A stretch of 35,202 nt of DNA from a virus. Location of the stretch: the IMG/VR virus record IMGVR_UViG_3300041402_000312, positions 1 through 35,202 of that record, one strand, 5' to 3'. The translations under genes were made by a program, and so were the position numbers. Below, piece after piece: positions 1-13,843 of the stretch; positions within the stretch are counted from its first letter, which is position 1; each line of letters begins with the position of its first letter. The notes under the pieces were generated by a model. That model did no database searches. It had not been told where the DNA came from and saw only the letters and a program-made list of their open reading frames with translations.

Positions 1-3000
1 GCCCTCACGAACGACGAGTGGGGCTTGAACGTCGGCGCGGGGAACGTCAACGTCATCGCCCTCCGAGCGATCGCGGCCACGCTCAAGACCGAGGGGAACG
101 GCTTCGCCTGGGTCTGGGATCGCCAGCTCAACGTCCTCGAGGTCATCCGCATGATCGAGGAGCAAGTCGACGGCGTCCTCTTCGCGGATCCGGTCTCGAA
201 TAACTACGACTTCAAGCTCATCCGCTTCGACTACACCCCAGGGACGCTTCCGCTCCTGGACGAGACGAACGTGACGAACGTCTCGCGCTTCCAGCGGCCG
301 GCCTGGGCGGAGACCTCGAACCACGTGACGGTCGAGTTCACCGACCGGCGCAAGAACTACACCCAGTCGTTCGCCCTGGCTCAAGACATGGCGAACGTCG
401 AGATCGTCCAGGCCGTCAACGCGGCGGCGATCAAGCTCCCCGGCGTCAAGGATCCGACCCTCGCGAATACGCTCGTCTGGCGTGAGCTCCGCCAGCTCTC
501 CTTCCCTGGCGCGACCGGCCAGCTCACGGCCGACCGCTCACAATGGGACCTCACGCCTGGCGATGTTCGGGAGCTCACCTGGGACCGGCTCGGCCTCACG
601 CGCCTCCCGATCCGGATCGTCAAGGTGAACCGCGGCGAGATCCTCAACAACAAGATCAAGATCGACTGGACCCAGGACATCTTCTCGATCAACGCCGGGA
701 CCTTCTCGGATCCAATAGACACCGGCTGGATCCCGGTCCCGTCGGTCGCCCAGCCCTCGCTCCGGGAGCGTCTCTGGGAGGTCCCCTTCCAGCTCTCGCT
801 CGACAACGAGCGACACCTGGCCGTTATATGCTCACGCGATGGCGGGCTCCACACGAGCTTCGACGTGATGGCCGACCGAAGCGGCGGGACGGCCTTCGCG
901 TTCGAGGGAACCGAGGCCGACTTCACGCCGACCGGCCTCCTCGCCGGCGCGGTCTTCCGAGATCTCGACGGGCCGCCTCACTACCTCCAGGACATTGAGA
1001 TCGACGGCTTGAACGACGTCACCGTCACCCAGCTCAACGACGCCGGCTCGACCACGGTCGACCCGAACAACCCGGCGAACATCTTCATCGTCGACGAGGA
1101 GCTCTTCTTCTACGAGAGCGCGACCGATCTCGGCGGCGGCCTCATCCGCCTGGTCAACTGTCACCGCGGGACCTTCGACACGATCCCAGCCGATCACGCG
1201 GACGACGCGGTCGTCTGGCTCATCGGCTTCGGCCTGGGTCTCATGCAACGGCTCGGTCCGCTCCCGAACACGGTCACGACGCCGAACGTGAAGATCCTCC
1301 CGACGACGATCCGCGACCAGCTCGACATCGCCTCGGCCGCGGCGCTCGGACCCTTCGCGGTCGGCCAGCGAGTCCTCTCACCGATCCCGCCAGGCGATCC
1401 GTTCATCAACCTCGACCGCTTCGTCGATGAGGACTGGATCCGCCAGGTCGGGACGCTGGACTTCACCTGGAACACCCGCAACAAGACGACCCAGGACTTC
1501 GACACGAAACAAGACGACCCGGATCTCAATCAGCCCGGCGACGTCGGCGCTCGGATCATCATCCGCCGCGTCGACAACTCGGTCGCGGTTCTCGACTTCG
1601 ACAACATCTTCTCGGATCAATTCATCACGACCGACTTCCTCCCTCAGTCGAGCCCAGGGATCCCCGACGAGCTCGACTTCACGGTCGAGATCTCGAACAA
1701 GACGACCGCCGGCAACGAGAGCCAGATCAACACGTCGGTCCCGTTCGAGGTCTTCGGCTTCGGCCTGGACTTCGGCGGCGACTTCGGCGGCGATGCCGCG
1801 ATCGGCGACGCCGGGATCGTCTTGTCCCAGGGCGCCCCGCCGTTCACGCCAGAACCGATCCCAGGCTCCGGCGTCGATCGGGTCTGGACGATCGACTTCC
1901 TCGGCTCGATCGAGACCGGCGAGAGCCGGCGGCTTCTCTTCGACATCACCGACACGCTCAACACCCAGACGCTCGGCGGCGTGAGCATTTTCCTCGATGC
2001 CGCCGGCGAGCCGACGCTCGAGGACTGGGCCGAGGCGACGCGGGAGTTCCTCGACACGATGTTCCTCTTCCCGCCCGAGCCGATGCCCTTCACGGTCACG
2101 CGCGAAGGGACTCAGGTCATCGTCACGACGCGCTTCGGCGATCTCAACCTCCGACAACAACCCGCGCTTCCGATCTTCACGCCGCTCAACGTATTCCCGC
2201 GGACCTACGTCCTCCAGGCGGCGGCCCCGCCGGCGACGCCAGTCCAGCAAATTATTTATGTGGACTGGTTCGGCCCGAGCGGGATCAGTATCACCGAGGA
2301 CGTGCTCTCGCCGACGAACGACCCGGCCTTCGCCGTGAGCTCACCCCTCCGGCAGAATATAACGAGCATTGGAGTCACGTCCTTGACCTTCGAGGCCCAG
2401 CAAGAACTCAGCCCCGAAGGCGGGAACGAGATCTTCGGCGTCCGCGCGACCGCCCCTCGAACCGATTCACGGACCCAGGATCTCCAGGAGTTCTACGACA
2501 AGTTCCGGAACTCGTCGATCGCTCAGTTCTTCACGTCGATCGAAGGCCCGCTCGTGCTTCGCGGCGGTCTGGATCGGCCGATGGCGCGCGGCGCGATCGT
2601 CTTGACGACGAAGCCGAACTTCCGCGCCCGGACCCTGCTATTCGGGACGAGCTGGGAGTATACGGCCGGCGGTCCCGCGGCCGACTTCAACGGTCCCGTC
2701 GAGTCGGGCTTCAAGCTCCTCCCGAAGGAAGGCTCGCCAGCCATCGCCGGCTCGACGACCGGGCTCGTCCAGGTCCTCAACGTCGGCGTCTTCAATATCA
2801 ACCAGGCGACGCCAGACGACGGGACGCTCTTCTTGTCCTACACGCTCGACGGGACCGTCTTCTCGGAGGCGATTCTACCGAACCCCGCGCCTCCGAGCGC
2901 CGTGAACTACGCGATCGCCTTCTCCGCCCTCATGGACGCGATCGACGCCGACCCACGCTTCGAGGTCGTCAATCGCCTCGAGGATATATCCTCGACCTCG

Positions 3001-3102
3001 TTCGCCGCTCAGATCGTCGCCGTCACCCCGAACTCGCCCTTCGAGCACTTCGCCGACGTCGGGAAAGGGCTCCGGATTGAGTTCCGAGACTTATCGCCAT
3101 AG
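1..3102 (+). CDS. Phage tail hub/tip protein, 5' end outside window
   Basis: The frame is already open at base 1 (first codons read A-L-T-N-D-E-W-G), so the true start lies upstream; 1033 residues are visible. Around residues 195-235 there is a stretch with LPIRIVKVNRGEI followed by KIKIDWTQDIF. This matches the pattern of the Phage-tail_3 group of tail hub proteins (long baseplate/tip proteins that cap the tail tube and carry fibres). The rest is beta-rich with no Cys-based motifs. It is followed after 11 nt by a fibre-type gene, which fits a tail-tip position. Specific function within the tip is inferred, not shown. Confidence 0.72.
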   Translation, partial: ALTNDEWGLNVGAGNVNVIALRAIAATLKTEGNGFAWVWDRQLNVLEVIRMIEEQVDGVLFADPVSNNYDFKLIRFDYTPGTLPLLDETNVTNVSRFQRPAWAETSNHVTVEFTDRRKNYTQSFALAQDMANVEIVQAVNAAAIKLPGVKDPTLANTLVWRELRQLSFPGATGQLTADRSQWDLTPGDVRELTWDRLGLTRLPIRIVKVNRGEILNNKIKIDWTQDIFSINAGTFSDPIDTGWIPVPSVAQPSLRERLWEVPFQLSLDNERHLAVICSRDGGLHTSFDVMADRSGGTAFAFEGTEADFTPTGLLAGAVFRDLDGPPHYLQDIEIDGLNDVTVTQLNDAGSTTVDPNNPANIFIVDEELFFYESATDLGGGLIRLVNCHRGTFDTIPADHADDAVVWLIGFGLGLMQRLGPLPNTVTTPNVKILPTTIRDQLDIASAAALGPFAVGQRVLSPIPPGDPFINLDRFVDEDWIRQVGTLDFTWNTRNKTTQDFDTKQDDPDLNQPGDVGARIIIRRVDNSVAVLDFDNIFSDQFITTDFLPQSSPGIPDELDFTVEISNKTTAGNESQINTSVPFEVFGFGLDFGGDFGGDAAIGDAGIVLSQGAPPFTPEPIPGSGVDRVWTIDFLGSIETGESRRLLFDITDTLNTQTLGGVSIFLDAAGEPTLEDWAEATREFLDTMFLFPPEPMPFTVTREGTQVIVTTRFGDLNLRQQPALPIFTPLNVFPRTYVLQAAAPPATPVQQIIYVDWFGPSGISITEDVLSPTNDPAFAVSSPLRQNITSIGVTSLTFEAQQELSPEGGNEIFGVRATAPRTDSRTQDLQEFYDKFRNSSIAQFFTSIEGPLVLRGGLDRPMARGAIVLTTKPNFRARTLLFGTSWEYTAGGPAADFNGPVESGFKLLPKEGSPAIAGSTTGLVQVLNVGVFNINQATPDDGTLFLSYTLDGTVFSEAILPNPAPPSAVNYAIAFSALMDAIDADPRFEVVNRLEDISSTSFAAQIVAVTPNSPFEHFADVGKGLRIEFRDLSP

Positions 3103-3113
3103 GATAACCAGCC

Positions 3114-4154
3114 ATGCCTCAAACAGCCCTCCCGAATATCGGTGTGAACTACGAGTTCACGCTCGGCTCGAACGCCTGGAAGAACGGCTTCGACTCCTCG
3201 ATGGTCATCCTCGACTCCCAGGTCCAGGCCTACGTCATCGACCAGCGGACCGCGGAGCCCGTCGGCCCAGCGGTCGGCGACACCTACCTCCTCGGGCCCG
3301 GCACACCGGCCGGGACGAACTGGGCCCCGGACACCCTGGGCGTCGCCGGCTCGATCGCGGTCTTCACGAACGTCCCAGGCCAGACCGACGGCTCGCCCTG
3401 GTTCTACATCGCGCCGCGGAACGGCTTCCAGATCTTCGACCGGACGCTCTTCCGGTCTTCGGTCTTCCTCTCGGGCGTCTGGCTCCCAGGCGGCCAGCTC
3501 CGCCGGCCCGAGAAGCTCGAGACCGGCGCGACCTACACGGCCGAGCTCGAAGATGCCGGCCGACTCCTCACGCTCGACAACGTCGCCACGCCGACCGAGC
3601 TCACGATCCCGACCTTCGCGTCGGTCGCGTTCCCGCTCGGGATCTTCCTCGAGGTCGCCTACCTGGGGACCGGCTTCCTGGACGTCGCCGGCGCGACCGG
3701 CGTCGACATCGAGTTCGCCGGCTATGACGAGAGCGCGGCCCCGAATGGCGCGACGCCGACCTTCGAGTCGAACGAGGGCTTCCGCCTGTACCACTTAACG
3801 AACGATCGCTGGATCCTCTTCCCGAACGCTCGCCAGCCGACGATCCAGTTCGAGACCGGCGTGAGCTTCGAGCCGAGCATGAGGAACCGGGACGGGACGG
3901 TCCTCATCGACAACGGCGCCCACACGACGAACATCCCAGACGAGGCGACGATCCCCTTCCCGATCGGGACGACGCTCGAGCTCGTGAACCAGAACGCCGC
4001 GGCGATCACGATCACCGACGACGCGGCCGTCTCCTGGGCGAGCGGATCCCAGGACCTCACGGTCGCCGGCATAGCGGCGAACGCCTCCGCCAAAATCAGG
4101 AAAGTCGCGAGTGACTCGTGGTTCGTCCTTCTCAACCAGACCCTCCCGACTTAG
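3114..4154 (+). CDS. Tail fibre-type protein with DUF2793-like N-terminus
   Basis: 346 aa, starting at an ATG 12 nt after the tail hub stop. Residues about 15-125 (WKNGFDSSMVILDSQVQAYV, then GDTYLLGPG, and a GSPWFYIAPRNGF block) follow the layout of DUF2793, a domain of phage and prophage tail appendages. Residues about 140-235 and 245-345 are two copies of one beta module: an aliphatic strand, a TIPTFASVAFPLG / TIPFPIGTTLEL strand and a closing DRWIL / DSWFVL strand. The module resembles repeats seen in phage side-fibre proteins. A role as an adsorption-apparatus component is inferred from position and architecture. Confidence 0.6.
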   Translation: MPQTALPNIGVNYEFTLGSNAWKNGFDSSMVILDSQVQAYVIDQRTAEPVGPAVGDTYLLGPGTPAGTNWAPDTLGVAGSIAVFTNVPGQTDGSPWFYIAPRNGFQIFDRTLFRSSVFLSGVWLPGGQLRRPEKLETGATYTAELEDAGRLLTLDNVATPTELTIPTFASVAFPLGIFLEVAYLGTGFLDVAGATGVDIEFAGYDESAAPNGATPTFESNEGFRLYHLTNDRWILFPNARQPTIQFETGVSFEPSMRNRDGTVLIDNGAHTTNIPDEATIPFPIGTTLELVNQNAAAITITDDAAVSWASGSQDLTVAGIAANASAKIRKVASDSWFVLLNQTLPT

Positions 4155-4163
4155 GAGATCATC

Positions 4164-4748
4164 ATGTCCCAGAACTTACAGCTCCAGAAGACCGTCAACA
4201 TCCACGCGCGGCGGATCCGACATCGACGTCGGCTTCTCACGACCGACCCGCGCTTCCGCTCACGTCACGCCGGCATGGACAACTTCCTCACCCGCGAGGC
4301 GACCAGGGCGAACGCGAGCCCGCTCCGCCTGGTCGGCGAGGCGATCGCCGCGGCCGGGACCGGCTACTTCGTGAACGACCAGTTCTCGATCACCGGCGGA
4401 TCCTTCACGGTCCCCGCGGTCGGCATGGTCTCGGAGGTCGGCGGATCCGGAGACGTGACCGGCGCGAAGCTCGTCGAGCGCGGGACCTATACGGTCGTCA
4501 CGCCGCCAGCATCGCCGACGACGGTGATCCGCCAGAAGAACGGGGCCCCGACACCTGGGACCGGCTTGACGATCAACGACGGGATCACGGTCGCGGTCGC
4601 TGGCGTGACCGCGGAGGAGCTCCTGGCGGGACTTCGGTCTCGGCTCAACCTGGCCGGCACGATCCCGACGCGGAAGGCCGCGCGAGATTATCGGAACCGC
4701 GAGAACTCGTCCGACACCTACGAGGACGCCGGCGTCCCGATCAGTTAG
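4164..4748 (+). CDS. Virion-associated protein sharing a module with the 26255 gene
   Basis: 194 aa with a clear Shine-Dalgarno (TTAGGAG) before ATG. The N-terminus is very basic (RRIRHRRR near residue 12). Residues about 65-125 hold a Gly-rich beta module (GTGYFVNDQFSITGGSF, later GTYTVVTP) that recurs in the protein at 26255-26944. The C-terminus (about 145-194) is charged and helical. Function is not recognised; position behind two tail genes and the shared module suggest a structural protein. Its TAG stop overlaps the TAA of the convergent gene at 4745-5503. Confidence 0.55.
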   Translation: MSQNLQLQKTVNIHARRIRHRRRLLTTDPRFRSRHAGMDNFLTREATRANASPLRLVGEAIAAAGTGYFVNDQFSITGGSFTVPAVGMVSEVGGSGDVTGAKLVERGTYTVVTPPASPTTVIRQKNGAPTPGTGLTINDGITVAVAGVTAEELLAGLRSRLNLAGTIPTRKAARDYRNRENSSDTYEDAGVPIS

Positions 4749-5503
4749 TCCTCCCAGTCGCGGAGGAGCGAGACGTCCCGCTTGAGGAGGGCCTGGCGCA
4801 TATCGACCGGCGCCGGCGCTCTCCCGGCCTGGCGGATCGCCCGACATAGCCAGGCGAGATCCTTCGGGCCGAAGCCCGAGAGGCCGACGACTACGTGGCC
4901 GAACGTGACCTGGGCGTGGATCGGAAGATCCTGATCGTGGACCCAGGAGACGAACTTCCGCGCGTCGCCGTGTTGCATGGCCGAGCTCGCCAGGTTCTCG
5001 GGAACCGGATCCGGCTCCGGCCTGGGATCTCCGAAGGTCTTCTTCGGCGGAACCTGGCCGAGGTCCTCGGGCGAGTTCGACTTCGGCTCGTCATCGAGCT
5101 CGTCGACGATCACCCTGGTCACGCTCTCGCCGGCATAGTCCGGGAGGAGATATATCTGGCTCTCCTGGTTCGTCCTGGCGTGACGTCTGGATCCGCGGAC
5201 AACGATCCGGCCCGACTTCTCGAGCTGGGAGAAGACGGTCGACTGGGAGACCCGCATGATCTCGGGCCGAAGGTCCTCGAACTCGATCCCCGTGACGCCG
5301 TGGTCGCGGGCTTTCGAGAGCTCCTCGAGGATCGCCTCGGCGATCGTCACGGGCCGGCCGGCGAGGTTCGCGTTCCTGGCCGACGTGTGACTGGTCTCGG
5401 GATCCCCTCGCCTGGCGCGGGCCTCGATGTCGAAGAGATCGTCCTGGCCGTCGCCGTCGTCGCCGTCGTCGCCGTTCTCAGAAGGGAGGGACATCATCGT
5501 CAC
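4745..5503 (-). CDS. Winged-helix domain protein, early region, function unknown
   Basis: 252 aa. The first 25 residues are Asp/Gly rich. Residues about 32-110 read RRGDPETSHTSARNA, then a helix-rich block ending in VSQSTVFSQLEKSGRIVVRG. That is the usual form of a phage winged-helix domain (DPETSH motif, recognition helix, wing). The C-terminal 100 residues are unrecognised. The start chosen is GTG at 5503 because a GGGAGG Shine-Dalgarno lies 6 nt upstream; ATGs 6 and 9 nt further in are alternatives. It overlaps the upstream zinc-finger gene by 26 nt. A replication or transcription role is possible but unproven. Confidence 0.62.
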   Translation of the reverse strand: MTMMSLPSENGDDGDDGDGQDDLFDIEARARRGDPETSHTSARNANLAGRPVTIAEAILEELSKARDHGVTGIEFEDLRPEIMRVSQSTVFSQLEKSGRIVVRGSRRHARTNQESQIYLLPDYAGESVTRVIVDELDDEPKSNSPEDLGQVPPKKTFGDPRPEPDPVPENLASSAMQHGDARKFVSWVHDQDLPIHAQVTFGHVVVGLSGFGPKDLAWLCRAIRQAGRAPAPVDMRQALLKRDVSLLRDWED

Positions 5504-5774
5504 CGTCGCCCTCCCTCAGTCGTTCCGGCTCCCTGGCGGGCGCTGGCGCCGCCCTGACGCGGTTCCCGGCCGTTCGCCCGGATCGGTAACAGTCCGGGCA
5601 AGTCTTCATCCAGTTCGCGCCCTGGAAGGGCTTGTCGCAAGCCTCACACGTCTGATCGAGCTTGCATCGGTGACGGTTCTCGGTCCCTGGCTCGACTGGG
5701 ATCCAGCGACCGTTCGAGCCCTGGATGAACGAGATCAGGGCGTCACAGTCTCGACACTCGGATGTCCTCGGCAT
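5478..5774 (-). CDS. Small zinc-finger protein
   Basis: 98 aa with a strong Shine-Dalgarno (AGAGGAGG) 6 nt before ATG. It has several Cys pairs: CRDC (residues 7-10), an H-x-C pair near 35, CEAC near 43, and CPDCY near 58. This fits one or two small zinc ribbons of a kind common in phage early genes (the W-K-T-C-x-x-C-Y ending). The tail is basic and Pro/Ala rich, then acidic (GDGDDD). First gene of a two-gene unit; its 3' end overlaps the winged-helix gene, suggesting coupled translation. Nucleic-acid binding is inferred. Confidence 0.6.
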   Translation of the reverse strand: MPRTSECRDCDALISFIQGSNGRWIPVEPGTENRHRCKLDQTCEACDKPFQGANWMKTCPDCYRSGRTAGNRVRAAPAPAREPERLREGDGDDDVPPF

Positions 5775-6104
5775 GATGTTCCTCCTCTTCTACTGGTTGA
5801 AGTTTATCGTCTTTTTGTTCATGGCCTGGGAGCGAGAGGGAGGGCAGCCCGAGAACTCCCGACCAGGTCGAGATCTCGGACACCCTCACCATGACCCGGT
5901 CGGTCGATGGTCGGGCCGCCGGCGTTCTTGCGCTCGCTCTCCGACGTTCGCCTTGCTTGTGTCTCCGCGCTTCCCCGAGTAGACGGTCACGGCCAGGCGC
6001 TCGCGTTAACCGCTCACCTGGGCGAGGGTCGAAGACTTGCGGAAGGGAGGGGCGTCGTGAGAAGATTCGCGGGCCCGGTCGTCTTCCTGCAAAGTTCGCG
6101 ACCG
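5775..6104. other. 330-nt gap without a convincing gene
   Basis: This stretch lies between the terminator of the unit ending at 6168 and the start of the zinc-finger gene at 5774, so it should hold the promoter for the 5774-to-4745 unit. I see no good -35/-10 pair and no copy of the operator found at the other early promoters. An AT-rich patch at 5797-5822 is the only compositional change. Short frames here lack Shine-Dalgarno sequences and recognisable products. Confidence 0.4.
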
Positions 6105-6140
6105 AAAAAAGGCCCCGCCGGATGTTCATCTGGCGGGGCC
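6105..6140 (-). terminator. Rho-independent terminator of the 8113-to-6168 unit
   Basis: On the - strand a 9-bp perfect GC stem (GGCCCCGCC / GGCGGGGCC, 6140-6132 and 6119-6111), extendable inward by a G-T and three more pairs, is followed at once by six Ts (6110-6105). It sits 28 nt past the stop of the last gene of the unit, facing the right way. Confidence 0.88.
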
Positions 6141-6167
6141 GTTCTTTATACGCCGACACTCGGCGGG

Positions 6168-6398
6168 CTACAAGCTCGACGGCTCGAACGTCTTCTCGAG
6201 GCGCCAGCCCTGGCATCGGAGCGCGTAGTGATGCTCGGCGACGAACACGCTTGTCCGATCCTTGCGCGACCAGAACTTCCAGAACCGCGGCGCGCGATCG
6301 CGGAGAAGGCGCTCGTCGACGCGGCTCCAGACGTCGACCTGGTCCTGGTCGGCGTGACACGTCATCCGCGCCAGGGTTATAGCTCGGGTCTTCTTCAT
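6168..6398 (-). CDS. Small basic protein of unknown function
   Basis: 76 aa, rich in Arg, Trp and His (FWKFWSRKDR near residues 39-48, then AEHHYALRC). No family recognised. Its ATG overlaps the stop of the preceding gene in an ATGA junction, and it is the last gene before a strong terminator, which supports it as a real coding frame. Confidence 0.55.
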   Translation of the reverse strand: MKKTRAITLARMTCHADQDQVDVWSRVDERLLRDRAPRFWKFWSRKDRTSVFVAEHHYALRCQGWRLEKTFEPSSL

Positions 6399-6604
6399 GT
6401 CGTTCCTCCTTCGCGGATCACCCGCGCGGCGTGGACCAGGGCCTTGAACGGCGACGGCCGCCTCGTTCCCTCGATCCGATTAAGGTGCACCCAGACGCCG
6501 GCCCAATAGCCGAACATCATGAACTTGTAACGGGCGAGCGACTCGATCGCCTTGTCGGCGGCCTCGTCGATCTCGTGGTTGAGTCTCCGGTCTTCGGTCT
6601 TCAT
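6395..6604 (-). CDS. Small conserved-type phage protein (YKF-MFGYWA motif)
   Basis: 69 aa. The centre reads LARYKFMMFGYWAGVWVHLN and is followed by PSPFKALVHAAR. I know this pattern (helical start, YKF.MFGYWA..WVHLN, PFK..V..AR) from small uncharacterised phage proteins. Both ends are ATGA-type overlaps with neighbouring genes, so translation is probably coupled. The aromatic-rich core could be a buried helix or a membrane contact; function unknown. Confidence 0.65.
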   Translation of the reverse strand: MKTEDRRLNHEIDEAADKAIESLARYKFMMFGYWAGVWVHLNRIEGTRRPSPFKALVHAARVIREGGTT

Positions 6605-6837
6605 TGTCCTCCTCCTCGTTCACGTTTTTCGATGTCGATCACCGACACGACCGGCGCGCCTGGCCGATACTGGTCGCGGATCTTGATGTAGGCGTCGCCG
6701 ATCTCGCCGGCGTCTTGCATCCAGGCGACGGTCGCGCGGCCGGCCTTCTGGGCTCCGGCCAGGGTATCGCCGAAGACTTGCTCGACGATCTTCTGGCTCG
6801 GGCCGCGGGCGCGGATGATGACGCGGAAGCGGATCAT
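6601..6837 (-). CDS. Small protein of unknown function
   Basis: 78 aa starting MIRFRVIIRA. The ATG at 6837 shares one base with the TGA of the upstream PP-loop gene (TGATG); a GTG one codon earlier is an alternative start. The pattern is a beta strand, a long amphipathic helix (about 13-45), then strands. No family recognised. It belongs to the five-gene - strand unit running from 8113 to 6168. Confidence 0.55.
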   Translation of the reverse strand: MIRFRVIIRARGPSQKIVEQVFGDTLAGAQKAGRATVAWMQDAGEIGDAYIKIRDQYRPGAPVVSVIDIEKRERGGGQ

Positions 6838-7817
6838 CACGCACACGTCCGAAGGTCGGCCGCGTTCCCGCCGTCGGCGACCTGGAGCTCGTCGGCCCGG
6901 CGAAGAAGCTCTTCGCGGTTCCCGATGAAGTTCCCGTCGGCGTCGACGATATGGTTGAGCCGCGCGAAGTGGTTCCAGGCGAAGCTCCGATTCAGGCCGA
7001 CGGTGATCGACGTGGTCGGCCATTGGTCGGCCGGCTTGTTCACGAAGTCCTCCCAGTCCTTGCCGTAGGTGCACTCGTCCGAACCCCAGCGGCTATGTCT
7101 TCCAGTCATGGCGCGATGTTCGATCTCGAGCGCCTTGAGGAAGAGATCCGGATGAGTTCCGGCCAGCCAGTAGAGCTCCCACACCTGGGAGGCCGGGCAA
7201 AAGAAGCAAGCCGATTTAATCGGAACCTCCAGGCCTTCGGCGACGATCGTCGCGATGCAATCTCCGCGAGTCATCCCGAGGTCCTGGAGCGGGTACGAGT
7301 ACAGGAAGAACTCGTCCTCGCGCTTCACGTTCTTCGAGCGGCGGAGGTCGGCCGGGCCGGCATCGTAGCCGAGGAGCTTCACGATCTTCTTCCCCTGGTC
7401 GAGCGCCTCCTGATAGACCGGATGGCGGGCGTAGGTGTACGGGCCCTTGCTCTTCCCCTTGAGGAAGTAGTCCTGGGGGTCGGCCTTCCACTTAATCGAG
7501 CATGACTTCTTCCCGAACGCCAGGCTCGGGAGCGTCTCGTTCTTGTAGTTGTTGCCGACCAGGGTCTTGTAGCCGGTCTCGGCCTTCGGGATCTTCTTCA
7601 CCCAGGTCACGAGCGGGAAGCCCTGGGCCTTGAGCCAGACGTCGATCTTCCGGACGGTCTCATAGGTCTCGGGCTTCTCGGCGCCGACGTCGGCGAACGT
7701 GATCGCGTCGGGGACGATGCCGGCGTCGCGGAGCTTGATGAGCATCGCGGTCGAGTCGACGCCGCCGCCATAGCAGACGACGACGCCGTGGTGATTTTTC
7801 GGGAGGCGGATCTTCAT
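6837..7817 (-). CDS. PP-loop ATPase, PAPS-reductase family
   Basis: 326 aa. A PP-loop, GGGVDST, lies at residues 17-23 after a first beta strand, as in N-type ATP pyrophosphatases of the PAPS reductase family, which adenylate or transfer sulfur to substrates. Further signatures are C106 (KKSCSIKWK) and the pair C204/C207 (ACFFCPASQ), likely metal or Fe-S ligands. The C-terminal Cys motif of true assimilatory PAPS reductases is not seen, so a role in nucleoside or DNA modification is as likely as sulfur assimilation. It overlaps both neighbours by 1-4 nt. A second, divergent family member lies at 8777-9589. Confidence 0.75.
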   Translation of the reverse strand: MKIRLPKNHHGVVVCYGGGVDSTAMLIKLRDAGIVPDAITFADVGAEKPETYETVRKIDVWLKAQGFPLVTWVKKIPKAETGYKTLVGNNYKNETLPSLAFGKKSCSIKWKADPQDYFLKGKSKGPYTYARHPVYQEALDQGKKIVKLLGYDAGPADLRRSKNVKREDEFFLYSYPLQDLGMTRGDCIATIVAEGLEVPIKSACFFCPASQVWELYWLAGTHPDLFLKALEIEHRAMTGRHSRWGSDECTYGKDWEDFVNKPADQWPTTSITVGLNRSFAWNHFARLNHIVDADGNFIGNREELLRRADELQVADGGNAADLRTCA

Positions 7818-8113
7818 GATGTGAAGGTCTCGCCAGTGATGAGATCGACAACGGTCTCGCCAGGTCCGAAGGCCGCGCGGAGCTCGTAGGCCCGCTCGGC
7901 TTTTTCGTCTTCGGTCATCGGGTTCGCCAGGCGATGAGCGCGGATCGAGCGGATCAGGTTCGTGGTCTCGATCTCGCGGGCTTCGACATGGCTCGCCAGG
8001 ACGTCGCCGCTCAAGCCGTGATTCTCTTCAAGGTAGTCGGCGAAGGGGATCTGGTTGTTCGACTCGAAGCGGATGATGCCATTGAGGTCGGTGTAAGTGG
8101 GGAAGGTCGTCAT
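7814..8113 (-). CDS. Hypothetical protein, first gene of the PP-loop unit
   Basis: 99 aa, acidic and mostly helical after a short strand-rich start (MTTFPTYTDL). No family recognised. The start chosen is the ATG at 8113 because AAGGAG lies 7 nt upstream; an in-frame ATG at 8134 coincides with the predicted transcription start and would give 7 extra residues. The stop overlaps the PP-loop gene ATG (ATGA). It stands directly behind the operator-bearing promoter at 8134. Confidence 0.6.
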   Translation of the reverse strand: MTTFPTYTDLNGIIRFESNNQIPFADYLEENHGLSGDVLASHVEAREIETTNLIRSIRAHRLANPMTEDEKAERAYELRAAFGPGETVVDLITGETFTS

Positions 8114-8133
8114 GTTGTGGCTCCTTGAGTTCA

Positions 8134-8183
8134 TGGTTCCAGTGTAGCGAGTCCCGCTACATCCGTCGGTGACGTGGTTCACA
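8134..8183 (-). promoter_or_regulatory. Early promoter with operator and CRP-type site (leftward)
   Basis: Reading leftward: TGTGA-N6-TCAC (8183-8169), operator TGTAGC-N7-GCTACA (8161-8143, perfect 6-bp arms), and -10 hexamer TACACT (8146-8141) overlapping the second arm. There is no TTGACA-like -35. The predicted start is 8134, which puts the centre of the TGTGA/TCAC element at -41.5, the class II CRP geometry. The leader to ATG 8113 is 21 nt and holds AAGGAG. The same module, nearly base for base, stands at 13523-13565 on the other strand. Confidence 0.72.
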
Positions 8184-8209
8184 CTTTTGGGAACTGGTTG
8201 AGACGGCCT

Positions 8210-8230
8210 GGGGCCCCAGGACGGGGCCCC
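8210..8230 (-). other. GC-rich hairpin after the 9589-to-8239 unit
   Basis: Two copies of GGGGCCCC separated by 5 nt, each self-complementary, can form an 8-bp stem or the alternative CCTGGGGCCCCAGG palindrome. It lies 9 nt past the stop at 8239 and before the next promoter. There is no T tract on the - strand, so it is at best a weak terminator or an RNA 3'-end stabiliser. Confidence 0.45.
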
Positions 8231-8238
8231 GCTTTATG

Positions 8239-8484
8239 TCACACGCCGGCCAGGAGCCGCCGCGCTTCCTTCGTCGAGCCGTTCCGCCTGGCGGATCCGC
8301 GGAACTTCGAGGCGGCCTTCGCCAGGGAGCCGGCCATCGGATCCGCGCGGAGGTCGTCCTTCGCCACGTGGCGGACCACGACCTTCGGCGTCTGGATCAC
8401 GAGCGACACCTGGGCCCGGCCCTCGAAGGCGATCGCGGCGCGGAAGCACCCGTCGACCCAGGCGGAGACGAACGTCGCCTTCAT
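8239..8484 (-). CDS. Small hypothetical protein
   Basis: 81 aa: an N-terminal half with alternating hydrophobic strands (TFVSAWVDG, QVSLVIQT, VVVRHV) and a basic, Ser/Arg-rich C-terminus. No family recognised. The ATG overlaps the stop of the upstream gene (ATGA). Third and last gene of the unit beginning with the PP-loop protein at 9589. Confidence 0.5.
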   Translation of the reverse strand: MKATFVSAWVDGCFRAAIAFEGRAQVSLVIQTPKVVVRHVAKDDLRADPMAGSLAKAASKFRGSARRNGSTKEARRLLAGV

Positions 8485-8765
8485 GACTTCACCGGCGAGC
8501 GGAGGATCCGCTCCAGGTTCTTGCGGATGTAGTCGGCGACCCTGGCGTGGCCTTCATCGGTCGAGTCGCGAAGATGCGACCAGTCCCAGCCGACCGTCGT
8601 CCGGAGCTCCCCGCCCGACATCCGGCCGAAGCCGTCGGCGAGCGTGTAGGCGTTCCAGGCGATGTCCGCCGGCGCCTGGTCATGGAGCGGGCCGTCCCAG
8701 TGTAAGACCTGGACGATGAGGTCCCAGTTCGTGAGGTTCGAGTAAAATTTGACGGTGTTCTTCAT
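8481..8765 (-). CDS. Small hypothetical protein
   Basis: 94 aa with a very strong Shine-Dalgarno (AGAGGAGG) 5 nt before ATG. It is Trp-rich (NWDLIVQVLHWDG, GWDWSHLRD) and ends in an amphipathic helix (VADYIRKNLERIL). No family recognised. It lies 11 nt behind the PP-loop gene and overlaps the next gene by 4 nt. Confidence 0.58.
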   Translation of the reverse strand: MKNTVKFYSNLTNWDLIVQVLHWDGPLHDQAPADIAWNAYTLADGFGRMSGGELRTTVGWDWSHLRDSTDEGHARVADYIRKNLERILRSPVKS

Positions 8766-8776
8766 GATGTCCTCCT

Positions 8777-9589
8777 CTACTTTTGGATCGAATTGATTCG
8801 AGCGGCCAGGGTCTCGCCGGAGAACATCGTGGTCCGAACATCGGCCTCGAGGTCGGCGAGCTTCTGGAGTAATTCAGGGCGGGCTTCGGCGCCGCGAGCC
8901 AGGTCGCCGCGACTTCCGAAGATGCAAAACACACACGAGAGGCGGTCGTTCCCGGCGTCGTATGCCGGATGACGTTCTTGACCCTTCGCTTCGATCTCGT
9001 TCCAGACCTGGGCGATTGTCCAGTCGGCGATCGGCCAATAGTCGAACGCCTGGCGCTTCGAGTTCGTGTTCTTCGTGTTGACGTTCAAGGTCCCGCGGTC
9101 GGCGATTTTCTTCGCGCGGACCGGGCTCTCCTCGGCGCGGATCCCGACACAATTCACGACGATCGCGTGGTCGCCCTGGGCCCGGATCACTTTCCAGATC
9201 GGGCCCGTCTTGAGGTCGGATGTACAGAAGCGAGCGGCCGAGCTCGGGAACGCCGGCGCGTCGGTCTTGCCCTTCGAGTCCAGTGAAGCGCGACGAGCGC
9301 GGACGGCTGAGAAGAAGTCCTTCTTCGATCCGTCGGCGTGGATCGCCTGGGCGACGAGGAGTTCCTTGTCGTCGATGTTCGAGCGGATGAAGCCCTTGAC
9401 GTTCTCGTGCTCGATGTCGCCGAGGTCGGCGTGAACGACGTGTAACTGGTCGGCCGGGACGAGCGTCGAGAGGATCGCGAACATCGCCTGGGAGTCCTTG
9501 CCTCCAGAATGACCGACGAAGAACTGGGCGCCCTTCTCGATGAGGTCCTGGATCTGGGTGAGGTTCGTGACTTGATTCGTGGTGTCCAT
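8777..9589 (-). CDS. PP-loop ATPase, PAPS-reductase family, second copy
   Basis: 270 aa. The PP-loop HSGGKDS is at residues 27-33 after a short strand. GIRAEES at about 149-155 and YWPIADWT at 184-191 are the usual family blocks (ribose/sulfate pocket and P-x-x-D-W-T strand). C122 (FCTSDLK) and C219/C222 (CVFC) form the same Cys layout as in the protein at 6837-7817, although the two are otherwise very different. It lacks the active-site Cys motif of assimilatory PAPS reductase. The start is ATG 9589, the only in-frame Met near the promoter. No Shine-Dalgarno is present; the message is probably leaderless. Confidence 0.75.
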   Translation of the reverse strand: MDTTNQVTNLTQIQDLIEKGAQFFVGHSGGKDSQAMFAILSTLVPADQLHVVHADLGDIEHENVKGFIRSNIDDKELLVAQAIHADGSKKDFFSAVRARRASLDSKGKTDAPAFPSSAARFCTSDLKTGPIWKVIRAQGDHAIVVNCVGIRAEESPVRAKKIADRGTLNVNTKNTNSKRQAFDYWPIADWTIAQVWNEIEAKGQERHPAYDAGNDRLSCVFCIFGSRGDLARGAEARPELLQKLADLEADVRTTMFSGETLAARINSIQK

Positions 9590-9596
9590 GTATTGA

Positions 9597-9638
9597 AGTG
9601 TAGCAAGCGCCGCTACAGAAAACCAGACCCGTGTCACA
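9597..9638 (-). promoter_or_regulatory. Early promoter with operator, probably leaderless (leftward)
   Basis: Leftward: TGTGA-N6-TC (9638-9626, one good CRP-type half-site and a degenerate partner), operator TGTAGC-N7-GCTACA (9617-9599, perfect arms), and extended -10 TGCTACACT whose hexamer is 9602-9597. The predicted start is 9590, one base before the ATG. It is divergent from the promoter at 9723-9743, with 183 nt between the two start codons. Confidence 0.65.
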
Positions 9639-9722
9639 GTTTTGGCAACCCGGCCCAGTGTTTACGCGGCTTTCGTCGATCGTGGTGAGTTATGTCAAAC
9701 GGCGAGCCGTTCCTGGTCTCGT

Positions 9723-9743
9723 CGTTGCGGCTCGTGCTACACT
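9723..9743 (+). promoter_or_regulatory. Early promoter with operator before the Cro-like gene (rightward)
   Basis: Extended -10 TGCTACACT with hexamer 9738-9743; the predicted start is 9750, giving a 23-nt leader with a GAGG Shine-Dalgarno. The operator is degenerate here: CGTTGC-N7-GCTACA (9723-9741), two mismatches in the upstream arm, same spacing and same overlap with the -10 as at the other sites. No CRP-type element and no clear -35. Confidence 0.6.
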
Positions 9744-9772
9744 CTCGAGGCCCTTCGCTTGAGGATCGTCAC

Positions 9773-9997
9773 ATGAAACAAGTCACCCTTCGCCAGGCCC
9801 GAGTCGACTCCGGCCTCACGGCCGAGGCGATCGCGGACCGCGCCGGGATCCACCGGACCACGCTCCACCGGATCGAGTCCGGGCTCATGCTTCCGAAGCG
9901 TGAGATCGCTCGCCGGCTCTTCGCCGTCTACAACGGCCGCGTCCCGCTCGGCTCGATCTACGATCCGGAGTTCGCCGGCGAAGTGAGGACGCCATGA
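9773..9997 (+). CDS. Cro/C1-type (XRE) helix-turn-helix regulator
   Basis: 74 aa. Residues 5-55 are a standard XRE fold: LRQARVDSGLTAEAIADRAG is helices 1-2 and the turn, IHRTTLHRIESG the recognition helix, followed by LPKREIARRLFAVY. There is no C-terminal dimerisation or cleavage domain, so it resembles Cro more than a CI repressor. It heads the rightward early unit and lies 30 nt behind an operator that overlaps its own promoter, so autoregulation and control of the four other operator copies is the simplest reading (inference). The stop overlaps the next start (ATGA). Confidence 0.8.
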   Translation: MKQVTLRQARVDSGLTAEAIADRAGIHRTTLHRIESGLMLPKREIARRLFAVYNGRVPLGSIYDPEFAGEVRTP

Positions 9998-10200
9998 TCT
10001 CGGCCTCGGACGTGCCGGCGTGTCCGGCTTGCGGATGTCGTGATGTTCATCCGATCAGTCGCGTCGGGAGCGGGACCTTCTACGCTTGCCGACAATGCGG
10101 GCGCGACGTGACCGACGCCTGGGTCGACGTCCAGCCGGCGCCGCCGCCGGCGCCCGTGATCGGTCCGCCGGATCCGGAGCCGACCGGGAGCTCGACATGA
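9994..10200 (+). CDS. Small zinc-ribbon protein
   Basis: 68 aa. CPACGC at residues 10-15 and CRQCG at about 32-36 form a two-knuckle zinc ribbon; the remainder is a Pro-rich tail (PAPPPAP). It overlaps the genes on both sides by 4 nt (ATGA). Probable nucleic-acid or protein contact module; no precise function. Confidence 0.6.
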   Translation: MISASDVPACPACGCRDVHPISRVGSGTFYACRQCGRDVTDAWVDVQPAPPPAPVIGPPDPEPTGSST

Positions 10201-10490
10201 AGGCGCCGACGATCGTCTGGATCGACGAACGGATCGCGGCCGGCCTTCCCCAGGACAAGGACGGCGAGCTCGCCGAGCGCGGCGTGAACCAGATCCGCTA
10301 CGTCGCCCAGGACCGTGTCAACGAGCTCGTCAACGCGGCCCGAGGACCTGGCGAGCTCATCATCCAGATCCAGACCGTCGGCGAGATCCTCTTCGGTCTC
10401 ACGAACCAGGGCCGGCTCTTCGCCTGGGGATCGGTCGAGGGCGAGACGCCCGGCTGGGCGCTCATGGCCGAGAACGAGCTCGAGCCGTGA
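10197..10490 (+). CDS. Small hypothetical protein
   Basis: 97 aa starting MKAPTIVWIDERI at the ATG overlapping the zinc-ribbon stop. The second half resembles a short beta-propeller-like blade (IQTVGEILFGLTNQGRLFAW, then GWALM), a pattern seen in small phage and bacterial proteins of unknown role. The TGA stop overlaps a GTG start (GTGA). Confidence 0.55.
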   Translation: MKAPTIVWIDERIAAGLPQDKDGELAERGVNQIRYVAQDRVNELVNAARGPGELIIQIQTVGEILFGLTNQGRLFAWGSVEGETPGWALMAENELEP

Positions 10491-10798
10491 GGGCCTGGAA
10501 GGGAGCGCGCAACGACACCGAGAAGGTCTTCCTCTACTTCCACGCCCACACCGACACGTTCTTCACCGAGGACCACGTCGCCGCCCAGGTCAAGATCGGG
10601 CGCCGGCGATGCCGGCGGATCGTCGCCTGGCTGGCGGCCGAGGCGAAGGTCGAGACGGTCGAGACCGTGAGCGCCTTTCGCTGGGGCCGGCCGAAGAAGA
10701 TGTTCAGGGCGATCCGCTCGAACGAGGACAACCTCCGCCAGCTCGAGGTCTTCCGCGACGCGCTCGCCTCCGCCGGCCTGGGAGACCCTTACTCGTGA
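10487..10798 (+). CDS. Small winged-helix-like protein
   Basis: 103 aa with a GTG start inside a GTGA junction. Residues about 8-75 suit a winged helix: a helix with EKVFLYFHAH, then TEDHVAAQVKIGRRRCRRIV as helix-turn-recognition helix, then a wing with VETVSAFRWGRPKKM. Basic overall. DNA binding is inferred from this pattern; target unknown. It could be an early regulator alongside the Cro-like protein. Confidence 0.58.
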   Translation: MRAWKGARNDTEKVFLYFHAHTDTFFTEDHVAAQVKIGRRRCRRIVAWLAAEAKVETVETVSAFRWGRPKKMFRAIRSNEDNLRQLEVFRDALASAGLGDPYS

Positions 10799-11007
10799 CG
10801 GGCCGCTGGCGATGCCACGCTTGCGGGGCCCGCTTCGAGACGCCGTCCTTCTCCGAGGGCCCGAAGGTCGTCGACCAGGAGACCCTCCAGGTCATCCGCT
10901 TCACCCAGGCGCTCGACTTGTGTCCGGAGTGTCTCTCGCCCGATCTGGCCGGGCCCGCGAACCCCGACCCGTTCACCCCGATCCAGGTCCGCCGCTCTCG
11001 ACCGTAG
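10795..11007 (+). CDS. Small zinc-ribbon protein
   Basis: 70 aa from a GTG at 10795 in another GTGA junction. CHAC (residues 7-10) and CPEC (43-46) give two Cys pairs 32 residues apart, as in a zinc ribbon with a long insert. The 3' end runs up to the promoter at 10998-11026, so this is the last gene of the early unit begun at 9773. Confidence 0.55.
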   Translation: MTGRWRCHACGARFETPSFSEGPKVVDQETLQVIRFTQALDLCPECLSPDLAGPANPDPFTPIQVRRSRP

Positions 11008-11026
11008 TCGCGAGACGCGCTACACT
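10998..11026 (+). promoter_or_regulatory. Promoter with operator before the recombination genes
   Basis: TCGACC (10998-11003, 4 of 6 to TTGACA), 17 nt, TACACT (11021-11026). Predicted start 11033, 22-nt leader with GGGAG. A degenerate operator, AGTCGC-N7-GCTACA (11006-11024), fills the spacer and overlaps the -10 exactly as at the other early promoters. Confidence 0.6.
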
Positions 11027-11054
11027 GGCCGCCTCACTTTGCAGGGAGAAAACC

Positions 11055-12083
11055 ATGAACGACAAGACCGAACCGTCGGCCGTTCCGGCCGTCATCAACA
11101 ACCTCATCGAGCCATCGGTTCCCCAGGTCCGCTCCGCGTTCGACCTGGCGCCGCAACAATTCAAGGCCGGCCTCGACCGCCGGAAGAAGAACCGCGACGC
11201 CCTCATGACCTGGATCCGCGAGAGCCTGGTCGAGGGGACCGACTGGGGCCGGATCCACGTCGTCAAGCGCGACGTGTGCGACGCCGGGAAGTGGTGCTCG
11301 AACGCTTACCACTTCTCGAAGCCGTCCTTGTGGAAAGCCGGCGCGGAGAAGATCGCCGGCATGATGGGCCTCCGCCCGACCTGGCCGAACCTGGACGAAG
11401 AGATCGACCGGATCCGGGAAGGCGCGAAGATCATCATCTTGAAGGCCCAGCTCCTCGACCTGGGCGGCTCGACCGTCTCCGAGGGCATCGGCGCCCGTGG
11501 CCTGGACCAGGACAACAACGACGTCAACAAGTCGCTCAAGATGGCGAAGAAGAGCTCGCTCATCGACGCCGTCCTCAACGCCGGCGGACTCTCGGAGGTC
11601 TTCACCCAGGACGTCGAGGACATGAAGCCGGAGGACTTCGGCGACGGCGGCGCGGACCCATACCAGAAGGGCGAGGACCGGATCGACTCGGCCATGCCGG
11701 CGCATAGCGGGAAGCCGCTCTCGTCTCATTGTCCGATCGGGAAGGAGTGGCGGAACGTCCCCTGGGAGGAAGTCGACGAGGGCTTCCTCTCCTGGATCCT
11801 GGAGAAGATCGACGACAAGCCCGAGCTCGTCGCCAGGGCCCGGAAGGAACTCGAGAGCCGCTCGGTCGAGACCCAGGGCGCGAAGGATCGGCGCCTGGAT
11901 GCTAAGATCGCGGAGCCGAAGAAGAAGCTCTCGGAGTACGCCCGCGACCTTACCGAGGCGACCACGTTCGACCAGCTCATCATCATCAAGGAAGACATCC
12001 CGGCCGAGCTCGAGCCGTCGCTCCGGACTTTCATCGCAACACGAGAAGCCGAACTCGGCCCAGATTCATCAATCGGCGCGTGA
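11055..12083 (+). CDS. Recombination-associated phage protein with ExoX-like C-terminal domain
   Basis: 342 aa. Residues 35-110 carry the pattern of a widespread phage family near recombination genes: DALMTWIRESLVEGTDWGRI, a Cys-containing insert, then SLWKAGAEKIAGMMGL (the L-x-K-x-GAEK signature). Residues about 157-195 continue with VNKSLKMAKKSSLIDAVL and FTQDVEDM, also typical. Residues about 225-268 (CPIGKEWRNVPWEEVDEGFL, then SWILEK) match the small ExoX-like C-terminal domain (G-K-x-W-x-x-x-P...YL-W-I). It may act in single-strand annealing or as a nuclease partner; no catalytic domain is visible. Strong Shine-Dalgarno GCAGGGAG. Confidence 0.6.
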   Translation: MNDKTEPSAVPAVINNLIEPSVPQVRSAFDLAPQQFKAGLDRRKKNRDALMTWIRESLVEGTDWGRIHVVKRDVCDAGKWCSNAYHFSKPSLWKAGAEKIAGMMGLRPTWPNLDEEIDRIREGAKIIILKAQLLDLGGSTVSEGIGARGLDQDNNDVNKSLKMAKKSSLIDAVLNAGGLSEVFTQDVEDMKPEDFGDGGADPYQKGEDRIDSAMPAHSGKPLSSHCPIGKEWRNVPWEEVDEGFLSWILEKIDDKPELVARARKELESRSVETQGAKDRRLDAKIAEPKKKLSEYARDLTEATTFDQLIIIKEDIPAELEPSLRTFIATREAELGPDSSIGA

Positions 12084-12100
12084 GGCGCCAGGAGGACATC

Positions 12101-12817
12101 GTGGAATTATCAACTCAGAAGAACCTCGCGATCGCGGAGCTCACCCCGATCGTCACCGACATCGCGGCCTTCGCCGGCACGATCGAGGGGATCGACGTCA
12201 CCGACGAAGAGACCCAGGGGCAAGTCGGCGACCTGGTCAAAATGATGCAACACCGCCGGCGCAAGATCGAGGACAAGCGCGAGAGCCTGGTCAAGCCGCT
12301 CAACGCCGTGGTCCGCGAGATCAACGCGCTCTTCAAGCCGCCCCGCGATCAGATCGACAAGATCGTCGCGATGGCGAAGAAGAAGATGACGCGCTTCGCC
12401 CAGGCCCAGGTCGCGATCGCGAACGAGGCGAAGCGCCAGGAACGCGAGAAGGCCGAGGCCGAACGCCGTGAGGCCCAGGAGCTCGCCGACGCGCTCCGGA
12501 AGAAGGCCGGCCAGGATGCCGTCCAGGTCGCCCAGGTCGTCCAGGAGGAAGCCGAGAAGAAGGTCGAGGTCGCGGCGAAGCCGGCGAAGGTCGCCGCCAC
12601 ACGCGGCCAGGAGTCGACGGTGATCGTGACGAAGACCTGGAAGGCCGAGGTCGTCGATCTCCTCGAGCTCGCCAGGGCGATCGCCGACGGCCGGGCCCCG
12701 ATCACAATGATCGAGCCGAACATGAGGGCGCTCCAGGACTTCGCGCGCGAGCTCAAGGACGAGGGAACGGTGAACGGCGTCCGGATATATCTCGACGTCT
12801 CGACGAGCGTCCGATGA
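12101..12817 (+). CDS. Coiled-coil protein, DUF1351-like, partner of the 11055 gene
   Basis: 238 aa from the GTG at 12101, chosen for AGGAGG 5 nt upstream; a GTG at 12080 overlapping the previous stop would add 7 residues. Residues 15-165 are almost entirely helical and charged (KIEDKRESLVKPLNAVVREI, then Glu/Arg/Ala repeats), a long coiled coil. The C-terminal 70 residues form a compact alpha/beta part (TVIVTKTWKAEVVDLLEL...). This plan, next to a recombination protein, resembles DUF1351-type phage proteins. Biochemical role unknown. Confidence 0.55.
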   Translation: MELSTQKNLAIAELTPIVTDIAAFAGTIEGIDVTDEETQGQVGDLVKMMQHRRRKIEDKRESLVKPLNAVVREINALFKPPRDQIDKIVAMAKKKMTRFAQAQVAIANEAKRQEREKAEAERREAQELADALRKKAGQDAVQVAQVVQEEAEKKVEVAAKPAKVAATRGQESTVIVTKTWKAEVVDLLELARAIADGRAPITMIEPNMRALQDFARELKDEGTVNGVRIYLDVSTSVR

Positions 12818-13146
12818 AGACGGTCATCGAGACCGACCTCGGCGCCTCGCGTGTCCGCGCGAACTACACGCTCCAGGTCGACGAGCCGGCGAAGCTCATC
12901 CGGATCGTCGACCAGGACCTCGGGGAAATGTCGGTGACGAACGACCTCGAGGCGGTCTTGTGCGACGTCGCTCGCCAGATCGACGACACGCTCGACAACT
13001 ACATCATCACCTACCGCGACTCGACCGGGATCTGGGACCGGATCGTCGTGACGCCTCACGACGTTCTCGCTCACACCTTCGACGTCGAGGTCCTCCCAGG
13101 CCCCGAGCAACCCTTCGAGCGCCGGGATCCGATGGCGACCTCGTGA
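12814..13146 (+). CDS. Small hypothetical protein
   Basis: 110 aa starting in an ATGA overlap with the coiled-coil gene. The pattern is strand-rich in the first half (VRANYTLQV, LIRIVDQDLG) with a helix in the middle (AVLCDVARQIDDTLDNYIIT). No family recognised. Third gene of the unit starting at 11055. Confidence 0.52.
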   Translation: MKTVIETDLGASRVRANYTLQVDEPAKLIRIVDQDLGEMSVTNDLEAVLCDVARQIDDTLDNYIITYRDSTGIWDRIVVTPHDVLAHTFDVEVLPGPEQPFERRDPMATS

Positions 13147-13373
13147 CCGGCTGGATCCTCTTCGCCGCCCTGGCCGGCTTCTTCCTCGGCGCCTGGGCCG
13201 GCGTTCGCGCCGGCCGGATCCAGATGATCGCCCAGATGAAGGCGTCGATCCCCCAGATGTCGGCCGAGTTCCTCAAAAGCATCAAGCCCGGCGACGTCAC
13301 GATCCAGCTCGTCGACGTCAACGGCGACATCATCGCCGAGGGCTCGACGAAGAAGCCCTCGGGCCTTCACTGA
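13143..13373 (+). CDS. Small single-span membrane protein
   Basis: 76 aa from a GTG in a GTGA overlap. Residues 4-22 (WILFAALAGFFLGAWAGV) are one transmembrane helix with small residues; the rest is a soluble tail ending in a short beta hairpin (VTIQLVDVNGDIIAEG). Last gene before the terminator at 13431. Function unknown. Confidence 0.55.
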   Translation: MTGWILFAALAGFFLGAWAGVRAGRIQMIAQMKASIPQMSAEFLKSIKPGDVTIQLVDVNGDIIAEGSTKKPSGLH

Positions 13374-13430
13374 CTTCGACGTCTCGGTGTCCTCCTGGAC
13401 GTCGGGGCGCGGCGACATCATCCGCCGCGT

Positions 13431-13465
13431 GAGGCCTCGCCCGTGAGGGGCGGGGCCTCTTTTCT
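13431..13465 (+). terminator. Rho-independent terminator of the 11055-to-13373 unit
   Basis: Stem GAGGCCTCGCCC / GGGCGGGGCCTC (13431-13442 and 13448-13459; 12 pairs with one T-G), loop GTGAG, then TTTTCTT. It lies 58 nt past the last stop. The loop sequence is shared with several leader hairpins further on. Confidence 0.87.
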
Positions 13466-13522
13466 TACATAAGCCCGAGAACCGGCTGGAGGCCCCGGAT
13501 TTCCTCACTTGTTGCTCTAAAC

Positions 13523-13565
13523 TGTGAACCACGTCACGGACGACTGTAGCCGTAACCGATACAAT
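13523..13565 (+). promoter_or_regulatory. Promoter with operator and CRP-type site (rightward)
   Basis: TGTGA-N6-TCAC (13523-13537), operator TGTAGC-N7-GATACA (13545-13563, one mismatch), -10 TACAAT (13560-13565, 5 of 6 to consensus) and no -35. The predicted start is 13572, which centres the TGTGA/TCAC element at -41.5. The leader to ATG 13591 is 19 nt and holds AAGGAG. It is nearly identical to the leftward promoter at 8134-8183, including flanking AACCACGTCAC and GACG bases. Confidence 0.75.
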
Positions 13566-13590
13566 GGTTATAGTAATTAAGGAGACCCAC

Positions 13591-13803
13591 ATGACGAACG
13601 ACAACACCTTCATCAACGACCACGGCTTCGACCGCGTGGACCTCGACGGCAAGACCTACAAGGTCTCGAAGCATCAGATGAGAGAAGACACCGAGGCCTT
13701 CTTCCTGGTCTGGCTCTACGGCCGAAGCTCCGAGGCGATCTACAAAAGCCACAAGGGCGCGCTCGCCGCCATCAAGCGAGGCCGGATCAAATACGACCGA
13801 TAG
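13591..13803 (+). CDS. Small protein transcribed alone, function unknown
   Basis: 70 aa, charged and mostly helical (YKVSKHQMREDTEAFFLVW, then SHKGALAAIKRGRIKYD). AAGGAG lies 6 nt before ATG 13591; an ATG at 13564 lies inside the promoter and is rejected. It has its own operator/CRP-type promoter and its own terminator, so it is a monocistronic, tightly controlled gene. No family recognised; size and control suit an early host-takeover or regulatory peptide (inference). Confidence 0.68.
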   Translation: MTNDNTFINDHGFDRVDLDGKTYKVSKHQMREDTEAFFLVWLYGRSSEAIYKSHKGALAAIKRGRIKYDR

Positions 13804-13817
13804 ACCCCGCACCCCAG

Positions 13818-13843
13818 GCCCCGCTCCGGCGGGGCTTTTTTTT
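13818..13843 (+). terminator. Rho-independent terminator of the 13591 gene
   Basis: Perfect 7-bp stem GCCCCGC / GCGGGGC (13818-13824 and 13829-13835), TCCG loop, then eight Ts (13836-13843), 15 nt past the stop. The last two Ts also form the start of the next promoter's -35. Confidence 0.92.

Follow-up and report, generated by a model that had tools for sequence, protein, structure and literature searches.

In the Cro/CI switches of the lambdoid phages and of 434, a small protein of the XRE fold acts through dyads lying over promoters, with divergent promoters beside the regulator gene. The same features are found in the virus record IMGVR_UViG_3300041402_000312 from IMG/VR (35,202 bases, the whole record, called the window below), where five dyads of the type TGTAGC-N7-GCTACA lie over early promoters and the gene at 9773 encodes a 74 amino acid (aa) protein, referred to here as XRE. 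Unlike the Cro/CI switches, the window has one operator per promoter at five promoters, and no CI, tandem operator triplets, integrase or match to a Cro model. The stoperators of L5 and D29 are similar in that one phage repressor serves many dispersed intergenic sites (PMC5712189), but L5 has about 24 of these, with the 13-base pair (bp) asymmetric sequence GGTGG(c/a)TGTCAAG, spread genome-wide (PMC5712189), and such stoperators lie mostly off promoters, whereas the five sites in the window are palindromes which all lie on -10 boxes. The C proteins C.Csp231I and C.BclI, the closest structures to XRE, are likewise short autoregulators with dyads beside their own gene, although no restriction-modification genes were noticed in the window and its sites are spread over an early regulon. 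As in lac-type dual control, an activator box lies upstream of a repressor dyad on the promoter core; unlike in lac, the repressor is encoded by the phage, no inducer is known, and the box lies at about -41 rather than -61.5. Literature searches for CRP-controlled phage early promoters gave coliphage T1 as the sole close case: as here, a phage regulator (Pir) represses its own promoter and another one (recE), and host cyclic AMP (cAMP)-CRP acts on the same promoters (PMC6737242). In T1, however, CRP represses, whereas in the window the box has the class II activation position, and Pir also activates hol and dam (PMC6737242).

We consider it probable that XRE is an autorepressing early shut-off protein acting on the early promoters, of which the left-type ones (8143, 9599 and 13545) would be switched on by a CRP-type activator, probably that of the host. 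Circuits in which a phage regulator represses itself and has several operators are known; new are the covariation between operators and recognition helix and the probable layer of host activation. The operators and the regulator gene are as follows:

8143..8161, minus strand: operator TGTAGC-N7-GCTACA with perfect arms; -10 box TACACT at 8146-8141; heads the unit 8113-4745
9599..9617, minus strand: operator TGTAGC-N7-GCTACA with perfect arms; -10 box TACACT at 9602-9597; divergent left promoter of the unit 9589-8239, kept in relatives
9723..9741, plus strand: operator CGTTGC-N7-GCTACA; -10 box TACACT at 9738-9743; the XRE gene's own promoter
11006..11024, plus strand: operator AGTCGC-N7-GCTACA; -10 box TACACT at 11021-11026; heads the unit 11055-13373
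10998-11003, plus strand: -35-like TCGACC of the 11006 promoter, 17 bp spacing
13545..13563, plus strand: operator TGTAGC-N7-GATACA; -10 box TACAAT at 13560-13565; heads the single-gene unit 13591-13803
9773..9997, plus strand: XRE protein (HTH_31/HTH_3), 74 aa, the proposed early repressor, from Pfam, AlphaFold and Foldseek

The window has 66% GC and is about 94% coding according to a codon-usage gene caller, with ~5% intergenic DNA. Early genes run leftward (4745-9589, minus strand) and rightward (9773-13803, plus strand) out of a divergent region at 9590-9772, and are followed by lysis, terminase, head and tail genes. The early genes form five units, 8113-4745 and 9589-8239 on the minus strand and 9773-11007, 11055-13373 and 13591-13803 on the plus strand. 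A first-pass annotation of this DNA had described the five dyads as overlapping a TACACT or TACAAT -10 box and as heading early units on both strands, with none at late promoters, and this was borne out throughout: the coordinates and sequences are correct, the right arm of every dyad runs into a -10 box (TACACT at four sites, TACAAT at 13545), the gene calls place each dyad at the head of an early unit, and none of the five lies in the late region. With these boxes taken as the -10, the dyads span about -27 to -9. When expected counts were taken from an order-2 Markov model of the window (200 runs), the five sites with at most two mismatches to TGTAGC-N7-GCTACA compared with a mean of 0.185 (maximum 2), and the three with at most one mismatch with 0.01; at up to three mismatches there were 11 dyads versus 3.25 expected, and five of the six extra ones are genic. 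All five operators are intergenic, though intergenic DNA makes up only 5% of the window.

Relatives were found with the XRE protein as query, and a profile built on the 12080 protein added L057, L066 and L067; a single-sequence search with the 11055 protein gave none (genes are named by their start in the window, contigs by label). With the near-duplicates in this region (G006, G008 and L058) set aside, there are 11 distinct contigs including the window, which share most or all of a module of XRE, zinc ribbon, 10197, 10487, 10795, 11055 and 12080. Where the stretch is present, one dyad is found at each of three orthologous promoters, the divergent left promoter, that of XRE and that before the 11055 gene, and its right arm invariably lies over the -10 box. 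The dyad before the 11055 homologue is present in 11/11 contigs, including G002, which is cut off upstream of XRE and contributes this promoter only, and the XRE gene always adjoins a dyad. The dyad arms vary between phage groups and the -10 box is constant. While the divergent left promoter is kept, the gene under it varies, being PAPS-reductase-like in the window and G004 and another gene elsewhere. The two genes concerned are:

11055..12083, plus strand: early gene (PHROG 10048), first in the second rightward unit and the anchor for orthologous operators
8777..9589, minus strand: PAPS-reductase-like gene of the early-left region, controlled by the divergent promoter; most relatives have other genes in its place

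The early-left region has a second PAPS-reductase-like protein at 6837-7817 (both PHROG 424), and G004 has close homologues of the two, likewise under this type of promoter. Between the divergent promoters lies an element AGTTATGTCAAA (9688-9699), kept in relatives as RTTATG(TC), and an ATCAAGG...TT stretch resembling an IHF site is found upstream of XRE in L015, L016, L017 and L019 and is absent from the window; no claim is made for it. Looping of the DNA from 9599 to 9723 was set aside as an idea, as the spacing varies among relatives.

XRE contains HTH_31 (E=3.4e-11, 43.7 bits, cut-off 27) and HTH_3 (E=1.9e-9, 37.9 bits, cut-off 23), both above the curated Pfam cut-offs, and its AlphaFold model is helical with a mean predicted local distance difference test score of 79 and a recognition helix at 28-35. 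The best Foldseek matches, with E values from 0.012 upwards and prob 1.00, were XRE regulators and included C.BclI, a C.Csp231I-operator complex, SinR, lambda repressor and 434 Cro, so that domains and fold together place it in the XRE/HTH_3 family. Among its Pfam and PHROG matches there was no Cro model of the lambda or P22 type, only general HTH and transcriptional regulator families. Exactly one HTH_3 protein was found in each of 13 records, always XRE, and the sole record without a match, L052, is a fragment ending before the XRE gene.

Five helix residues (27/28/29/32/33) read HRTHR in the window and G001, TRPYR in G002-G005, G007 and L066, KKPYR in L057, DRGYR in G009 and DRAYR in L067, and the operators change with them: in phages with T, G or A at residue 29, 22 of 24 half-sites have G at position 5, against 0/38 in those with P29, one P29-type operator being TGTCCC-N7-GGTACA in G007. 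A Mantel comparison of operator and XRE distances gave r 0.71 and a partial r of 0.58 given genome distance (p 0.0014), and the recognition helix alone gave a partial r of 0.61 (p 0.0006). L066 is the most distant genome by its other early proteins, yet its helix has the proline and its operators are of the proline type, which speaks against shared ancestry as a simple explanation. Taken together, the sole HTH_3 protein, the adjoining dyad and the helix covariation support the proposal made in the first-pass annotation that XRE is likely to be one repressor of itself and the early units. The layout is that of an autoregulated repressor, with operators not only at its own promoter but also at several others of the early region, kept in relatives. 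The label "Cro-like" given there holds for the proposed function and not for the family, with HTH_31/HTH_3 domains, no Cro match and no CI partner seen; similarly, the regulon proposed there stands as regards the repressor sites, but was incomplete in that a second conserved, CRP-like element at the left-type promoters had been overlooked. In the window, this element is found at three of the five dyads (8143, 9599 and 13545), as a TGTGA-type box 21-22 bp upstream:

8168..8183, minus strand: CRP-like box TGTGAACCACGTCACC, 22 bp upstream of the start of the 8143 operator, centre about -41.5
9623..9638, minus strand: weaker CRP-like box TGTGACACGGGTCTGG (7/10), offset 21, with strong boxes at this place in relatives
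13523..13538, plus strand: CRP-like box TGTGAACCACGTCACG, offset 22, centre about -41.5

Across 10 contigs, matches of 9/10 to the box are all 21 or 22 bp upstream of a dyad, bar one genic match in G009. A score of at least 7 at offset 21/22 was seen at 10/14 left-type promoters (chance 0.003 each) and at 0/20 XRE and 11055 promoters, and one of at least 6 at 12/14 left-type promoters (chance 0.026 each). Perfect copies of TGTGA-N6-TCACA occur in L057 and L067. In L067 such a perfect copy (4948-4963) is found at an offset of 34 bp from the left operator, further upstream than usual by roughly a helical turn, and another left-type promoter of this contig has a TGTGA half-box at offset 21. The left-type promoters have little or no -35 consensus, while many 11055-type promoters have GAC at the -35 place and a 17-bp spacer. 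Class II CRP sites overlap the -35 (PMC12360894), and the boxes, of the TGTGA-N6-TCACA type and centred at -41.5 or -40.5 relative to the start inferred from the -10 box, agree with such sites in position and sequence. The dyad arms differ from one phage group to another and the TGTGA-N6-TCAC box does not, which points to a separate binder. As G000-G009 yielded no cyclic nucleotide-binding protein, any CRP-type activator would be supplied by the host. As judged from motif and position, the activator is most likely a host CRP/Vfr/Clp-type protein at a class II position. When all of IMG/VR was scanned for the composite element, hits came from this phage family and from four GC-poor contigs (L049, L051, L054 and L055) with unrelated coding-region matches, which were rejected as chance: the first three share one coding-region match, and L055 is without a related protein.

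Several observations weigh against this combined picture. The split between P29 and other helices may reflect one or two evolutionary events, so that the 11 contigs would give few independent points of covariation. Some left arms are degenerate and were taken by register (GTTCTC at some XRE promoters, CATCCC at one 11055 promoter), and the -10 boxes were assigned by consensus match alone. The CRP-like box is missing from G009, L066 has a weak version of it, and at one L067 promoter it is out of place, at offset 34.

Of the other explanations, two are of similar standing. In the first, XRE binds the dyads, but the box is bound by another phage protein and the left-type promoters are delayed-early:

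10487..10798, plus strand: candidate DNA-binding protein 10487, winged-helix-like, 103 aa, kept in all relatives

Its putative recognition helix GRRRxRRIV is near-invariant in all relatives, matching the invariant box, and is altered in G009, the contig without the box; there are also weak MarR-like fold matches (E 0.29). We nevertheless find this unlikely, as the box has the CRP consensus with exact spacing, up to the perfect copies in L057 and L067, no family could be assigned to 10487 with confidence, and proteins of the MarR type mostly act as repressors. The second, that the phage is temperate and XRE its CI-type lysogeny repressor, and not a protein for early shut-off in a lytic phage, would fit the autoregulated XRE gene beside a divergent promoter, which is the layout of temperate switches, and has parallels in the L5 immunity repressor, which likewise has dispersed single operators (PMC5712189), and in T1, which was long called lytic and can form lysogens (PMC6737242). 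This too appears doubtful: neither a tyrosine integrase, serine recombinase or resolvase nor a second (CI-type) HTH_3 repressor was found in the records searched, which may be incomplete, and XRE, at only 74 aa, has no C-terminal domain for dimerisation or cleavage. The simplest reading is that the phage is virulent and XRE serves for early shut-off.

It is still less likely that the dyads are bound by some other protein, 10487 or a host repressor, with XRE merely co-occurring. Although 10487 is also present in every relative, in the operon of XRE, it is XRE distance that explains operator distance, the 10487 distance having a partial r of only 0.10 once XRE is accounted for; the 10487 helix is identical in window-type and P29-type phages despite their differing operators, and a host protein would not covary with the helix of a phage protein. 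That the dyads are instead a promoter class signature, for a special sigma factor or a MerR-type protein, is highly improbable, for while their centre is near -18, like that of MerR sites, no MerR or sigma factor was seen among the window proteins scanned, the 11055-type promoters often have GAC where a -35 is expected, at the normal distance of 17 bp, and the dyad arms differ between phage groups where the -10 box does not.

Returning to XRE as an early shut-off protein, we infer binding, repression, activator identity and timing from the sites, their positions, their conservation and their covariation with the helix, all read from sequence. A dimer of XRE would bind dyads of the form NGTNNC-N7-GNTACA, filling -27 to -9 of the early promoters, and would thus block RNA polymerase and silence its own gene along with the early-right units and the two early-left ones. 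The weak left arm that most relatives have at the XRE promoter is consistent with the graded affinity suggested in the first-pass annotation, and that promoter would then be shut last. The left-type promoters at 8143, 9599 and 13545, which lack a -35, would be activated via the TGTGA-N6-TCAC box at about -41, and the phage repressor would override the host activator, as at lac.

The 13545 promoter resembles the 8143 promoter from TGTGA box through dyad, as if copied, and it is flanked, together with its gene, by two hairpins:

13431..13459, plus strand: intrinsic terminator-like hairpin ending the unit that precedes the 13545 promoter
13816..13837, plus strand: intrinsic terminator-like hairpin after the gene 13591-13803

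No homologue of this gene was found among the relatives compared, and with its own operator-bearing promoter and a hairpin on either side we regard it as a moron-like insert under the same regulon. The L052 fragment (IMGVR_UViG_3300037246_000734, from the same metagenome) is 99.97% identical to window positions 1-9667 and adds 4.4 kb of genome leftwards, where there are further genes with homologues in relatives. A large late gene (28783-31734) encodes many degenerate AGSADLxLTPAATIxAxGEL-like repeats. Megablast of the window core against cultured phages gave no match, and XRE had only weak matches among cultured phages and no useful relative in bacterial genomes. The capsid and terminase have relatives infecting Pseudomonas, Xanthomonas, Rhizobium and others, too distant for host assignment.

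With these results, an uncultured phage family gains a defined early regulon with a named regulator, as well as a natural series of regulator-operator pairs, with several helices and matching half-sites, for the study of how XRE specificity evolves. We tentatively suggest, at somewhat less than even confidence, that these apparently virulent tailed phages wired their early-left genes to host cAMP-CRP (or Vfr/Clp) by way of class II activator sites, overlaid by an autorepressor whose recognition helix and operators coevolve. If the box is indeed a host CRP site, early expression would be tied to the carbon state of the host, and the programme of early genes would respond to the metabolic state of the host.

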